Source: Tetrapyrgos nigripes
Lineage: Eukaryota; Basidiomycota; Agaricomycetes; Agaricales; Campanellaceae
Assembly: GCA_013368315.1 (NCBI GenBank)
Contig: JAACJM010000006.1
Span: 1,116,001-1,180,000 of the forward strand
Direction of reading: 5' to 3'
DNA: 64,000 bases
Part shown: one piece after another, positions 38,757-46,105 of the stretch
How the letters are laid out: each line of letters begins with the position of its first letter
Numbering within the stretch: the stretch's first letter is position 1
Position numbers and translations under genes: made by a program
Notes under the pieces: model-generated
Databases searched by the model: none
What the model saw: only the letters and a program-made list of their open reading frames with translations
What the model was told of the DNA's origin: nothing

Positions 38757-38851
38757 GAGGTTGAGCTGGACCCGAACATCAGATTCCTGCACAAAATCTT
38801 TTCCCTGACAACCATACCGCCACCTTTCCTCTTTTGCGCTAGCTTTGGGTG
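38757..38851 (-). repeat. Left copy of a ~95-bp direct repeat flanking the nested element
   Basis: GAGGTTGAGCTGGACCCGA and downstream sequence to CCTTTCCTCTTTTGCGC recur in the same orientation at 46011-46105. Read on the minus strand both copies encode AKEER(W/R)RYGC(Q/R)GKDFVQ then VQLNL, so a coding piece is duplicated on both sides of the nested element. Confidence 0.8.
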
Positions 38852-39054
38852 GAGCATGTATATGGTTGCCCATCGGGACAAGGTCAAGTTTGACTTTGAC
38901 TAACGTCGCTTAAGTGAGCCGGGGTCCTGTCACGCTTTCTATAGTGACAATGGACATGGACTAGTCCACGACACCACGATACTCAAACAGGAAGTGGCTG
39001 GGTCGACATGCATGAATGTCAAACGGAGTTGAAAAATCTAGAGAGAAGTTACTT

Positions 39055-39212
39055 AGCTGGATAGAACCAATACATGTATACATACTTCTTAATCCCAGTG
39101 ACTACCATTTAGAGGAGGAGAATTTGGAATATCCAGCAAGACATAGCTAGCTACATAGATAGAACCAATATATATACATCCTTAAGAATCCCAATGACTA
39201 TCATTGGAATAA
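39055..39212. repeat. Diverged tandem duplication inside the nested element
   Basis: TAG(C)TGGATAGAACCAATACATG... to CCCAGTGACTACCATT (39057-39110) recurs as ATAGATAGAACCAATATATA... to CCCAATGACTATCATT (about 39157-39205). Confidence 0.7.
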
Positions 39213-39860
39213 CCCGCGAGACGATAGCGAAGCAGGTGTAGTACGGTGGCGCGTATTAAGGCGCGTCAGCCTAATTTGGCAACTTGATTACATCATCCAA
39301 CCAGACACAGCTTTCCTTTTCACCACAATTCCAGTCTTGTACCAGCTGGTACATATTTCACTGTCCAAATTCTCATTTTCAGAGCACAAGGAGGCTGCTA
39401 GCTCCCATTTAAAAGCAAAAGCTAGGCTGTAGCTGCTCAGCTGCAAAAGTTACAGTCCATTTTTTGATAGCCCCTAACTTCTCTTGATGCACCTCCACTT
39501 AATATGTATCCCAGAAGAATAGATTCCCTGAATGAATGATAACATTAAGAGAATTGCTACTCTATATATAGAAAATTCAGGAGGAAAAAAGCTAAGCTGG
39601 GCCAGATAGAATACTGAGAGAATAAGGTAAGGATTTATGAATGATTGGCGGCAAAACAGTAGTCAAACGAGAGAAGGGAAATCAATGAGTGACACATAAA
39701 TGGGTAATGAGGCAATTAGACAAGAAATAATCTACAAAGTTAATGGACATGAAGATTAAAAACATCATAGAGTATTAGAGTATTGGATACCAATAGGTCG
39801 GAATTGGGTCAGAAACCATAACTTGAAGTACGAGTAATGTATGAGTTGAGAAGATATCTT

Positions 39861-42349
39861 CTAAGTAACTTGAAGGTGCAACAGAGAAAGGGCATTGCAG
39901 AAAGTGTTCCATTTGCATCCACCTGCCTGTTTGGTATGATGATTGGCATAGGCAGCCACTTTCTCTGGGCCTTGGTCCCAGTACAAATGAAGGCGGTGAT
40001 CACTTTCATCACTGTAAAAAGTCTCAGTGTCAGTATAGTATGGATATATGGTAGCGGAGATCACTCACGTATGGCACTGAGGATCAATAAGACAAAGAAC
40101 CCCATCTCTATCGCGTACACCTAGTGAATATGACACATGAGAATTGTTGGAGACTCAAAGACAGTTGGAACATTACCTTGAAGATCACATAGAAGAAGAC
40201 CTCCCTTAGACAGCTTATAGCTGTAGTGCATGAATGCATGCATCAGAGCCGTGGTCCTATCACTAGGGGATGCACCAACATTGTCGTAACCAGTGTATTT
40301 CTGGACTGGTGGGTCAGCTGGTCCGCATGGTAAGAGTGGTGTTGCAAGAAAGTGCTCAAATGGAGGTGCATGTACAAGTGTTTCAAAGGATGAGGCTGCA
40401 CTGAGAGTACCCACAAAAGCTCCCAGAAAGTTGAACTGGAATTCTGCCCACAGAGGTCAGCTTTTGAAGATCAAGAAAGAGAAATACCCTACTAGGAAAA
40501 TATATTCCGGCAGTTGACAAATCATTCTTGAAATCTTCACATAGGGTGTGTCCGTCACTCAGGTTTTCATACTCAGCACAGAGGGTCTTCAAGTTCTGTG
40601 ATTCGTCATTACCAGCTTGCAGTTGTGCAAATGCATATTCCTCATCCTGATATCTGACCTATTGCATAAGTTTACAGATTAGCCAAGCTCCAAAGATGTG
40701 CACTCAGTGGTACCCACATAGAAGACATTCTTGGAGCATCCGCTTCCTATGAATGCCGTCTTGATGACACTGTGTCCATCTGGAAACCAAGTGCGCCAAT
40801 CTGTTGGAAGGAGAATCTGGTCTGATGTTTCTTCTTCAGAGAAGTTGCGAGTTGCTGTGTCATAGGTCAGTTTACGGAATGGCCAGGACCTGAGCGGCAC
40901 ATCTCTAGCAAATGATTTTGGTGTTGGGAGCGGGACACTACACGAAACAAAAGCACTCTTCCGAATAAGGGAAGTGGAAGCCTGAGTCGGTCCACTAGAA
41001 TGACGTGCTGACACATGCCGCTTGAAGTCAAGCTCAAGCTCGGTGTAAGCTTTATGCTTTGTAACTGTGGAGGCCTGCCTGGAAACAAAGGCACTTTCCA
41101 TAGTGTAACCTGAAGACAACAGTGAGCTTTGCACAGACTGGTGATATGCAGGCTCTAGCTCATCGTCCTGGCCCTGGGGCTATAGATGTTCAATGGTTAG
41201 CAAGATACGACATATCGTCAGGAATAAAAATGACATACAAGAAATCTCTCCTCGATCACAAGCTGTAGCGTTAGTTTTCGGGATGAGACTTGGTTTCATT
41301 GGATATAATCATTTTGGGCAAAATGGTTCAGCAGGTTATCCATGTTCTTGTTCTCAAATTCCCAAACATCTAAAAACACTGCCTGTGTTTTGTTGACATG
41401 TGCATAAAATCGAACCATTCCACTGCAGAAGAGGTATCCGAATGGTTAGAAAGTCTCTAACAAAAACTCAAGCCATGAAGACCCACCGGTGGATATTACC
41501 AGAGCAACCGGGATAGCTTGCCTCCAAGATATCCCTGATTTTAAGAACCAAGTCGTCAAAAGCCCAAGCAACAGTGTCATCCTTGTTGTACATCGGTTGT
41601 ACCTGGTATTGTTCATGCTGTTCAAAATGATATTAGTGAAGCGAATACAGATACAGAAGCAACCCTTACAGCGGCAAGTATTTCTCCACCTCCCCTCTTC
41701 TTCCGAGAAGTGTAAAGGACAGCCAAGACCTGGACACTAAGCTGTTGCTTGGCGGCAGCTGCATGGAGGACTGCCTGTGTTTTTGTCAACCCACGATTAC
41801 CAGCGTTGGTAGCAGCAGCCTTCTGCAGATTGGCATTCTGTGGTTGCGGCACTGAGGAAGACGGAGCTTTGGAACGTGGAGTGGAGCGTGGAGTAAGCCG
41901 TGTGTCAGAAGCTCGTCCACGATGATGAACTGCTGAGGAAAGGATGGCGCTGGCAGTGTTTGAAATTGTAGGGGTGTTGGTCTGGAGTGAAAGCACTTGT
42001 TCTTGTGCACCTGGGTGACGTGTCAGAGAGGCCAGTAGTGCAATCTGATCAGCTGGAAAACATATCAGAAGGGAATAATCTGGATATATAAACATGTACC
42101 CCAGTGAAGAGCACAAGGCTCACATAGTGGCATGTCAAGCTCAGCATAAATAAGGCTACAGCTCATGCACTGTGGATTATTCTAGAAAAGTGTTAGTGGT
42201 AGTGTAATGATTGAAGAGTGGCCGAGCCCACTTACCTTGATCACAGCCTTCTCGACTGGTGATTTACCATTGACAGCTTTGCAGACAGCACAAGCTGTAC
42301 CCTCTAATAAACGAGGATAGTCTGCGCTGCAACTGCTGCACCTCGTCAT
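39861..42349 (-). CDS. Alpha-type protein kinase with N-terminal CxxC motifs (transposon cargo)
   Basis: Minus-strand multi-exon gene. The N-terminus has paired C-x2-C motifs (CSSCSADYPRL, TACAVC; after an intron CMSCSLIYAEL, CEPC), a likely zinc-binding region. A Ser/Gln/Ala-rich middle and a segment with YNKDDTVAWAFDDLVLKIRD follow. The kinase part runs GSGCSKNVFYV, RYQDEEYAFAQLQ, KFQFNFLGAFVG, FLATPLLPCGPADPPVQKYTG, MHAFMHYSYKLSKGGLLLCDLQG, DGVLCLIDPQCH and ends NTFCNALSL. KYTG, MHAFMHYS, LLCDLQG and DPQ are the signature of the Agaricomycete alpha-kinase family (PF02816 type). The kinase exons splice cleanly without stops. Boundaries in 41160-41470 are uncertain, and an in-frame TGA in one reading there could be intronic. 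An upstream in-frame ATG at 42391 is possible. Substrate unknown. Confidence 0.75.
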
Positions 42350-42630
42350 GCTAGGGAAGTGAAAGCTGGACCTCAACTGGATCCTGACCACTTAGCACTA
42401 AAACATTGGAGAAATTAGAACCCCAAAAAATAGACTAGAAATGCTGAATCGAATTCAAAGAAAACGGACCTTGGAGATTTTGCGCCTGAACCCTCACCAC
42501 CACATGAAAAAGCCCCCGAATCCCGACTTTACCAGAAATTCAGCTGGAAACAACCAGTATCCTGTATGTCGTGAGTCTCATCCCTGGCTTAAAAGAAAGT
42601 TACATACTTATTACGGCACCTTGTAGTTCC
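42350..42630. promoter_or_regulatory. Shared divergent promoter of alpha-kinase and integrase-core genes
   Basis: The two genes inside the nested element start back to back with about 280 bp between their recognisable 5' ends, so both must be driven from here. A small open frame (42441-42626) is present but unrecognised and may be the first exon of the plus-strand gene. Confidence 0.4.
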
Positions 42631-44109
42631 AGCAAGTGACCCTATGCTTCGTGAAGCTCTGATGAAGTATCACTGTTGAAAAGAAGGCAGCAATAAAAAA
42701 ATTTTGCAGCTGCTAGAAAAGGAGTACGGGATAAAAATGAGGTACTTTCATACACATATTGCTTATCATAGCTGACCTTGGAAAGCCCATCAACTGTCAA
42801 GAGCCAGCGAAAAGAGCTGAGACTATCCAGAAGCTTGGTGACTATGAAGACACTGGATGAAGAAGGCGTGGCGAATGCAACTCATATGGTACTCAACGAA
42901 CTGTCTAAAGATCCTGCACAACGTTCTGGGGTCCGTACCATACAAGGTTGCGTTTGATTATACAACACACCTTACTCGGTGCGTACTGCTAGTATGTATG
43001 GGAAAGCAGCTAACTCACTATCCTGTAGACGGTTTGTGTCAGATGTAATGCATGAACACGCTAATGAAGGATTTGACCTACGAGAACCAACAGCAAAGAA
43101 AATCAACCGAGTACCAAAAAATCCTCTGGGTATTCACCATCGCTGGTCTGGAGATGGTCATGACAAGCTCTACAAAATTGGATTTCCAATCTGGGCTGTT
43201 TGTGATGACGCAACTGGATGTTGGCTGGGTGCTTGGGTAGTACCAAGTAACAGAATGGCTGACATTGTTGCCTATTGCTTTCTATCTCTTGTCGTAAAAT
43301 TTGGAGGTTCGTGTGTAAACAAAGTCGTTGGAAGCAAGACGTGTTTTTGACGCGTGTGACCATCCTTCAGGTATACCAGTGCAGTTCACCACGGACTGTG
43401 GTTCGGAAATGACTGCTCTCTTTGGGCTCATCAATGCTTTGAGGTATATATTTTGTTTTCTCAACCTTTTTATATGCTAATTGACAAGTAATTGTGTGAT
43501 GCAGGGAGATTTTTTACCCAGAATGCCCCATTGATGAACTGCCAGTGCACATCTTCCTCCATAGCATTCATAACATCACCATTGAGAGGTCCTGGCTCAG
43601 GTTGCGACTCGACATTGGTGATAATGCAGTGATTTGGTTTCAGATGGGCATAGAGACAGGAGTCTACAATCCTAATAATGGAAACCATTAGTGCGTATAT
43701 TGAAGTCTCTGTGTCGTGACTTTGCTAATGGATGTATAGCCTGCTTTGTCAGTGGATATGGCCTTTTTTACTTCAGAAAGACCTCAACGATTTCATGGAG
43801 TTTCGTAATGGTGTCAAGAGGCGCAAGGATAGTAAGGTGGCCCTGTCCGGAAAGTCAAGAGCCGAAGCCTTTACGCTTTTCAAGGACTGGGGTGGACAAG
43901 ATTTTCTTATGCCCGTGGATGTAGAGGTTGTCAAAGAGAGCATGGAGTCCATGGGTGGTGACAGCCTGCTTGAGTTCGTGCCGAAAGAGTTTTCCATGCG
44001 GGCACAGGAGGTTTATGACTCCCTGGGGATTTCTGAGCTCACAATGCTCAATGTCTGGGATGTTTTCACGGCTATGCTTCCTATCCTTTTCCCTGACAAT
44101 GATCCCTAG
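42631..44109 (+). pseudogene. Integrase-core (DDE) domain protein, probable transposase, decayed N-terminus
   Basis: Reads SDPMLREALMKYHC, an in-frame TGA, then LLEKEYGIKM, SPSTVKSQRKELRLSRS, VLNELSKDPAQRSGVRTIQ, a one-base frameshift near 42935-42948, VAFDYTTHLTR, RRFVSDVMHEHANEGFDL, HHRWSGDGHDKLYKIGFPIW, VQFTTDCGSE, HSIHNITIERSWLRLRLD, NPNNGNH and a long C-terminus ending FPDNDP. Asp in SGDGHDK, Asp in TTDCGSE and Glu in HNITIERSW match the D-D-E catalytic triad of integrase-core proteins. The catalytic domain and C-terminus are open; the N-terminal third carries one stop and one shift. Partner of the divergent alpha-kinase inside the TIR element. Confidence 0.75.
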
Positions 44110-45900
44110 GCTCTTTCTGTACTATCTATGAATAATGATCAGTGTTCTGATACAATGTGCGGGTCTTTCTCTCTCAATTTAAGTCTCTTTTCTATTTGTA
44201 CAGACAGGCATACAGGCAGGCAAAGAGATGTAAGAGGGATTTGACAAAGTGCAGCTAAATATGAGTGTAGGCGAGGTGCTGGGACAAATGGAACAAAAAG
44301 CATAATGTAATTGAGTAGTAGTCCGTGCTTGAAGGTGAACTTCAACCTGCCATCCTTGACCTCATACTTCATATGCTCCATCATTGACTGGTGCAGTAGC
44401 ACCACTAGCTACAACTGCACAGATACCCGAAGGCAAATCCTCAAAGACCGGCGTCGTGTCATAGCCAAAGCATTTTGTAGCAGAGGAAAGGGGATTGGAG
44501 TGACTACAGTTTTGCCGGTTTTGAGACACTTGTCGTCGGTGGTGGGGATGGGAGGCAGTGTGATATACACCAGTTGCTGAAAGAGATCAGAATCAGAATG
44601 GTGAAAATGGAACAGAGAATGAAAGTAGACATGCGAAAGAGGATGTGGATGACGGGTTTCTGAAATATGCATATGACTTACCACAACATCCTTATAATGC
44701 CTGCAACCGCCTGTCACTTGTCGTCAAATATCAGGTGTTGTTCCCTATTTCTGACCTCCAACGCCTCTTAACCTCGCTTCCCACCCAGTTCCTCCATCTG
44801 ATCAAGATCCTGAGCTGATACTAAGGGTTCTTCTGTCGGGGGATTTAGGACTGCAGGTTTTGAGGGAGTAAATGCAGTTTTCGTGGATGGTCTGGCAGGA
44901 AGAACAGAGGAAGGTTAATAGTAAGAAAGAAACAGTGGAAGGCGAAAGAGAGGATGAAAGAAAAAAGGGACCAAAGCGAACGAAAAGAGAATGAGAAATC
45001 AAGAAAGGCATGACTCACAGTAGTGTTGGAATAGCTTGCTGAAAGAGTTGAGGGAATGTCAGGAGAGCGGTGTACGGCGAGGTTTCCCTCCGATGATGCC
45101 TTGGACTTTTGTCGGTTGCTTGGGAAAAGACGACGTGGTAACAGATGGTGGGTCAGATTATTTGGTGACTACGTGCTTCGACACCATTTGGATGGAGTAT
45201 GTGGGGTAAGGACCTTGTGAGTGACAGAAGTCTTCTTTGACCTTGGCCTTGAAGTTGGACAAGATTGGATTGTTGACTGTGAGCTCCCAAGAAGACTTGC
45301 AACTACCATCAAACCCCTACAAAAACGCTGGTGGTGAGAGGTGCTAGTATGAGGGAGCAGGTGCTGACTCAGGAGCATAGAGTGGAGAAAAGAGTATGCA
45401 TACTCCGATGATCCAGAATGGAGGGAATACTGAATGAAAGAAGGTAGCATAAGTCAAAGAGAGTTGCAGTGTGAAAAGAAACAAAACCTGCACAAAACCG
45501 AAACACCCATTGTTATAGGCTCATTTTTGGGTTTCCAGGTCTGAAAGTGACAGTCAATGGTCGTCGCATTAGAGCAGAAACAACAGGAGGACCTCAGAGT
45601 CTACTTGCGACCCGTAAATGTCAAGACTCAACGCAATTTGGAAGTTTAAAGATTCATTAGGGTTAGGGTTACCCTAAGCACGTATCAATACTACTTACAT
45701 GGCTCAAGGAATTACAGTGAATGGAAGGAAATATGGGCACGAGCTTCAGAATTGGCCAAAGAGGTATGTATACATGCTGAGTGCAGTAACTACAGCAGTA
45801 GAATCGTACACTAGCTTACATGAAGAGCCTGCTAGCTGATGGAGAGACCGTCGTCCATGGACCAAGTACAGTCACGGAGTGCCAGGACCCCGAAAGCAGG
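44110..45900. other. Non-coding right part of the nested element
   Basis: About 1.8 kb without a recognisable gene. Minus-strand open frames at 44409-45450 are Ser/His-rich and carry no motif. A short palindrome of telomere-like repeats, TTAGGGTTAGGGTTACCCTAA, lies at 45657-45677. Confidence 0.45.
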
Positions 45901-46010
45901 TGTCGGCTAAGGAAGGAACTCAACAGCCGAAGTCAAACTTGACCTTGTCCCGATGGGCAACTGTAATGTATGAATCAATGAGCACTGTATAATGTCACAA
46001 AATGATCTGT

Positions 46011-46105
46011 GAGGTTGAGCTGGACCCGAGCATCAGAGTCCTGCACGAAATCTTTTCCCCGACAGCCATACCGCCGCCTTTCCTCTTTTGCACTAGTGGA
46101 TGGTG
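46011..46105 (-). repeat. Right copy of the ~95-bp direct repeat flanking the nested element
   Basis: Same orientation as 38757-38851 with about one substitution every ten bases. Minus-strand reading AKEERRRYGCRGKDFVQDSD continues into VQLNL. Confidence 0.8.

Follow-up and report, generated by a model that had tools for sequence, protein, structure and literature searches.

An alpha-kinase and a DDE integrase paired in a degenerate, putatively IS3EU-type DNA transposon of Tetrapyrgos nigripes

The window, a 64,000-nucleotide stretch of one contig of the mushroom Tetrapyrgos nigripes, contains a 7,105-bp element at 38861–45965 (no strand assigned). The element is bounded by terminal inverted repeats (TIRs) and encloses two divergently transcribed genes, an alpha-kinase and an integrase-core (DDE) gene. 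An earlier note on this DNA, made from the letters alone, had reported perfect 32-bp TIRs. The two arms (38865–38896 and 45930–45961) are indeed identical at 32/32 positions, and the true termini lie further out: because the ends of other copies extend outward to TA, we place the element bounds at 38861 and 45965, in agreement with the flanking duplication. The left TIR therefore covers 38861–38896 (plus strand) and the right TIR 45930–45965 (minus strand). In each the inner 32 nt are exact; the outer four are TATG on the left and TACA, read inward, on the right. ATGTA abuts the element on each flank (38856–38860 and 45966–45970) as a 5-bp target duplication.

Kinase. The alpha-kinase gene lies on the minus strand at 39861–42349 in 10 exons with GT donors and AG acceptors. 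It encodes a CxxC-rich N-terminus and a C-terminal kinase domain at approximately 39933–40744 (model residues 444–640, four exons). The spliced product matches PF02816 (Alpha_kinase; E 2.8e-15, 57.3 bits against a cut-off of 21.3), and its fold is a good match to alpha-kinases. The catalytic exons read as cleanly as the earlier note had claimed; exon 5, upstream of the domain, does not, having an in-frame TGA at 41298–41296 in a stretch that is conserved in the kinase of another element, on contig C23. The gene corresponds to database protein P0001 (D9758_005094, T. nigripes). The deposited model omits the TGA-bearing stretch, whereas the C23 kinase includes its equivalent.

Integrase. The integrase gene is on the plus strand at 42626–44109, as delimited by its PF24764 match and by alignment with the copy on contig C20; its true start may be upstream, from about 42441. 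The product matches PF24764 (rva_4) with E 2.9e-7 and 30.9 bits (cut-off 26), and its match to rve is below threshold (E 9.6e-4, 19.8 bits against 32.6). The D, D, E triad that the note had seen is present with spacings of 58 and 42, and its residues are conserved in 113, 118 and 119 of 120 aligned homologues. The frame is broken by an in-frame TGA (42677–42679) and by a frameshift at 42946–42947, where the gene is 4 nt shorter than in C20. The two genes are head to head, the kinase ATG (42349) being less than 280 nt from the integrase coding region. Since the kinase has one stop and the integrase a stop and a frameshift, the window copy is probably no longer autonomous. Neither protein is probably produced intact from it, and its transposase would have to come from a different copy.

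The TIRs belong to a repeated family. In the genome assembly (98.46 Mb in 587 contigs, the window copy being C6), a 23-nt TIR pattern with up to three mismatches occurs at 16 sites, against none for the reversed control. Both ends are intact in six elements: C6 (7.1 kb), C251 (5.3 kb), C38 (2.7 kb), C5 (2.3 kb), C136 (2.1 kb) and C50 (1.9 kb). In a seventh element, on C20 (7.6 kb), the left end is damaged, and C8, C18, C27 and C121 each hold a single end among the TIR searches made. C20 is the second copy with both genes, in the same order as in the window (DNA identity 78% in the kinase region and 85% in the integrase region), and its frames are broken in kinase and integrase alike. C50 derives from a C6-like element by internal deletion, with arms 96–98% identical and both genes gone. 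C136 is a deletion derivative that retains the kinase 3' end. C251 (C251:42905–48197) has the window's TIRs; integrase and kinase profiles found nothing in it and its open reading frames (ORFs) are short. It looks non-autonomous, and the idea that it carries another passenger gene was not upheld, no recognisable gene being present. An 86-bp inverted repeat lies inside it.

Comparison of C6 with C20 shows that both genes are under purifying selection. The ratio dN/dS is 0.38 (0.29–0.48; 652 codons) for the kinase and 0.23 (0.16–0.32; 394 codons) for the integrase. It is 0.43 (0.29–0.63) for the part of the kinase whose codons lie at or below window position 40930 (cut at about residue 382). Both copies are broken, so part of this divergence is neutral and the constraint on working genes is probably stronger than these ratios show.

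The earlier note had said that TIRs confined to this locus, or two genes never found together elsewhere, would make the pairing a chance juxtaposition. Neither situation was found: beyond C20, the genes are paired in C23 and in further families, at least six families in all, in five of which TIRs enclose both. The C23 element is 15,098 bp long with TIR TACCGTTGCCC and duplication TTCAGTC. Its integrase is on the minus strand and its kinase on the plus strand, with protein identities to the window's genes of 41–64% and 32–53%, respectively, over tblastn pieces. The C58 and C243 copies (C58:344605–351614 and C243:104931–111940) are 7,010 bp long with an exact 26-bp TIR, the integrase on the minus strand and the kinase on the plus strand; they are 99.7% identical to each other and their flanks differ. 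The TIR pattern of the C58 type was matched at 55 places; in seven cases (C20a, C58, C142, C154, C160, C163 and C243) a TIR pair has both genes inside it. The integrase of this type is about 100% identical at seven places. It appears to be a young IS3EU-type family and is the best candidate for activity. We had considered its kinase as a host gene and rejected this after both ends, the TIRs and the integrase were found. The C190 type has kinase and integrase head to head. Two complete elements on C31 have their genes tail to tail: C31a (C31:98376–103410; 5,035 bp, duplication CCACAC) and C31b (C31:138449–144839; 6,391 bp, duplication CTCCAA). C261 is a tail-to-tail relative of C31a.

The C23 element has an unusual interior. 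About 9.5 kb separate its integrase from its kinase (C23:622803–632259), and this spacer contains long ORFs. Four of them, at 624311–627891, have no Pfam family; another matches KOW5_SPT5 at 24.8 bits, under the cut-off of 27. An inverted-repeat scan of the spacer for a nested element found none.

The elements have their ends in common. TA stands at both ends of C6, C50, C251, C38, C136, C5, C58, C243, C23, C31a and C31b. Exact duplications abut the TA in 9 of 12 elements (C6, C50, C251, C136, C5, C23, C58, C31a and C31b, with lengths of 5, 7, 5, 5, 7, 7, 6, 6 and 6 nt). The duplication of C243 is 4 nt, and C38 and C20 have none that is exact. The chance of a 5–8 nt duplication in random flanks is 0.0015 each.

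We counted how many alpha-kinases of the genome sit beside an integrase. The kinase list has 43 rows over the Pfam cut-off; two of them are pieces of one locus, so that 42 are counted. The integrase list comprises at least 110 loci: 3 of the window/C23 type, 24 from a C58-type search, 10 of the C190 type and at least 73 from Pfam rva_4. Of the 42 kinases, 20 have a head-to-head integrase no more than 15 kb away, where about 0.35 would be expected by chance; for 17 of the 20 the integrase is within 8 kb. The other three orientations yielded two cases, each at a kinase that already had a head-to-head partner. Three more kinases (two on C31 and one on C261) lie tail to tail with an integrase within 2 kb, bringing the total to 23 of 42. 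All 20 head-to-head partners came from the window/C23-, C58- and C190-type searches and none from the listed Pfam rva_4 loci. By type, 10 of 12 C58-type integrases (at least 71% identity) are paired, the exceptions being C401 and C5, and so are 7 of 10 C190-type integrases, the exceptions being C281 and two fragments. Near-identical copies (six C58-type at about 100%) and the use of two integrase queries taken from beside kinases raise the count; searches that give lower bounds and introns that split genes depress it. Given this excess, and pairing in C20, C23 and four further families, the association of kinase and integrase is not due to chance.

Similar pairs occur in other fungi. A protein search with a kinase alignment returned 22 proteins (7,995 candidates scored), and a single-sequence query returned 3. 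Those of the 22 that are named to species we take to be Agaricomycetes. An integrase search returned 207 proteins, 120 of which were listed. Kinase and integrase apparently share a contig in Rickenella mellea (8,930 bp), the only case that shows them to be close together, and apparently also in Phlegmacium glaucopus (210,646), Flammula alnicola (445,315) and Hebeloma cylindrosporum (1,166,244). An Arthromyces matolae model (P0125) has both domains in one protein, and a Laccaria bicolor model (P0047), judged by eye, has an integrase continuing into kinase-N-terminal-like sequence. These models suggest genes on one strand there, or mis-joined annotation. For the remaining kinases there was no partner among the 120 listed of 207 integrases. 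Integrase and kinase distances are correlated across six taxa (Mantel r 0.78; 23 of 720 permutations as high), which, with so few data, favours joint descent of the two genes.

We class the element as an IS3EU-type DNA transposon by setting its TA..TA ends, long TIRs, 5–7 bp duplications and rva_4/rve transposase against published descriptions. IS3EU elements are described as having TA..TA termini and duplications usually of 6 bp, with an rve-like DDE transposase, in an account of IS3EU and GingerRoot in which the word 'kinase' occurs 0 times (PMC10045372), whereas the elements here carry one. The IS3EU families of rusts have TIRs longer than 30 bp ending in TAYGG..CCRTA (Kojima, 2025; PMC12730594). 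The left terminus of the window element, TATGG, fits this pattern, as do the termini of C50, C251, C38, C136 and C5; C23 reads TACCG.

The closest published relatives are the TET+ IS3EU families of rusts and Tuber (Kojima, 2025; PMC12730594). Like the window element, they are described with TA-ended TIRs of more than 30 bp, short duplications, and transposase and alpha-kinase genes in opposite orientations; in every such family a TET gene lies between the two. The earlier note knew of no class of DNA transposons with a eukaryotic-type kinase as passenger, but this kind is already in print, the alpha-kinase being mentioned in passing in that paper. The elements here differ in having no TET/JBP gene found, in their Agaricomycete host, in duplications of 5–7 rather than 6 bp, and in the tail-to-tail genes of some families. 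No TET family was found in the ORFs scanned in the window element, and less than 280 nt separate its two genes; it is not classed as TET+ IS3EU because it has no TET/JBP gene between transposase and kinase. An IS3EU with an alpha-kinase and no TET is not described in the available part of PMC12730594 or in the rest of the literature searched, and no figure for the share of alpha-kinases carried in this way was met in that literature either. That paper alone tied alpha-kinase to IS3EU in our search, in which Repbase reports and most subscription journals were out of reach, and an earlier report may exist. Added here are the Agaricomycete form lacking TET, the number of families, and the fraction of one genome's alpha-kinases that is carried.

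We consider it likely that a two-gene DNA transposon of the IS3EU type is present here as a degenerate copy, and its kinase is most likely a conserved accessory. In an intact copy, the DDE transposase would bind the TIRs and insert the element by a staggered cut of 5–7 bp, and the adjoining alpha-kinase gene would be transcribed divergently from a short common intergenic region. The kinase would most likely help the element to persist by acting on a host nuclear factor (in silencing, chromatin or repair) or on the transposase. A host factor may be the better candidate target, the TET/JBP gene carried by sister elements of IS3EU providing the analogy. The earlier note had called the kinase a passenger, which is doubtful because the gene is under purifying selection and recurs in several families.

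Several observations weigh against this reading. Nineteen of the 42 kinase rows have no counted partner. Among these, C136 is a relic inside a TIR pair and C99 is about 0.7 kb from a C58-type TIR. At C27:445921, C233, C240, C197 and C151, 7.5 kb of sequence lying mainly upstream of the kinase contained no integrase; for C197 and C233 there are possible integrases, weak or on the same strand, at a distance of 12–13 kb. None of the 73 Pfam rva_4 loci among the matches listed is head to head with a kinase, and none of 12 C89-type integrases (65–68% to the C58 type; including C89:35488–36710) has one. Because of these two results, we conclude that the kinase is carried by certain integrase lineages only. 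At the window locus, the right terminus is TACAG and not TAYGG, and across the elements the duplication length is 5–7 and not uniformly 6.

One alternative, possible though rather doubtful, is that the kinase phosphorylates its own transposase, timing or limiting transposition, rather than acting on the host. In the window copy the genes are head to head and a short intergenic region apart; this arrangement, the repeated pairing and the correlated divergence of kinase and integrase are all consistent with such self-regulation. However, most integrase loci among the matches listed have no kinase, so their transposases would have to work without one.

The kinase of the window's subfamily could also be a pseudokinase, or an altered enzyme serving as a binding scaffold, which we think unlikely. 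In sequence alignment, the strand after the glycine loop reads [ED][YF][VA]xxQ in this subfamily and has no lysine: the position is Gln in 18 of 22 rows and Val in 2, the remaining 2 being fragments unaligned there. C190- and C58-type kinases have MVFKRM and VVMKELY at this strand. The lysine of the N-lobe is presumably the residue that contacts ATP in alpha-kinases. Against a loss of function, the subfamily retains the DLQG and DPQ motifs and the His/Cys pattern and keeps a good fit to the alpha-kinase fold; we presume that DxQ, DPQ and the His/Cys zinc site have their usual roles in PF02816. The lysine position is also judged from sequence alignment alone, in which the C190 lysine is one column from the Gln. 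Compared with the structure-solved alpha-kinases (TRPM7/ChaK 1ia9, MHCK A 3lkm, eEF2K and ALPK1), the kinase here is transposon-encoded and has a CxxC-rich N-terminus, and the window subfamily appears to lack the lysine in that strand. A PDB sequence search with the C58-type kinase returned zero chains.

Assignment of the integrase to a sister superfamily (GingerRoot or Ginger) instead of IS3EU is improbable. GingerRoot shares TA..TA termini and 6-bp duplications with IS3EU and forms one lineage with it (PMC10045372), but fungal IS3EU elements are described with long TIRs, termini of the form TAYGG..CCRTA and, opposite the transposase, an alpha-kinase (PMC12730594).

The idea that the genes lie together by chance, or that a host kinase was captured once between two TIRs and has no function there, has in its favour that about 87 of 110 integrase loci among the matches listed are unpaired and that both genes are broken in C6 and C20 alike, but we rejected it as highly improbable on the head-to-head excess, the several families with TIRs around both genes and the purifying selection on the kinase, to which the correlated divergence over six taxa can be added, together with flanks of C58 and C243 that differ, unlike those of a segmental duplication.

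The reading of the kinase as a conserved accessory of an IS3EU-type transposon bears on the abundance of alpha-kinases in mushrooms, which the earlier note had thought mobile carriage might help explain. With 23 of 42 kinases beside an integrase, a large part of the expansion in this genome is plausibly due to carriage; carriage of a kinase is not general among integrases, as the listed rva_4 loci show. We tentatively extend the reading, with somewhat less than even confidence: in several mushroom IS3EU lineages the alpha-kinase would be a standing second gene serving the transposon, either against silencing by the host or through the transposase, much of the alpha-kinase expansion of mushrooms and rusts would consist of transposon genes and not of genes for host signalling, and the usual ATP-binding lysine would have been lost from one large subfamily. 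In rusts the alpha-kinase family is described as highly expanded (PMC4469406), and an enrichment table in a paper on wheat rust includes PF02816 (PMC5295586); the available part of neither paper mentions transposons. Should most of these kinases be transposon genes, the counts reflect transposon load and the kinome annotations of these fungi need correcting. A kinase borne by a DNA transposon would also give a direct handle on what a eukaryotic transposon does to its host or to its own transposase.

The remainder of the window element is made up of two arms. One ORF of the left arm (38897–39860) was scanned with Pfam and matched no family, and none of the nine ORFs scanned in the right arm (44110–45929) exceeded a family cut-off; neither arm has a recognised gene. 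Outside the element, copies of an 86-bp direct repeat (92%) lie on either side of it at 38757–38842 and 46011–46096, as if the insertion had split a local repeat pair. Just to its left are two nested inverted-repeat pairs, 37739–37817/38088–38166 (79 nt, 96%) and 37007–37048/38191–38232 (42 nt, 86%), which possibly represent a small separate element.

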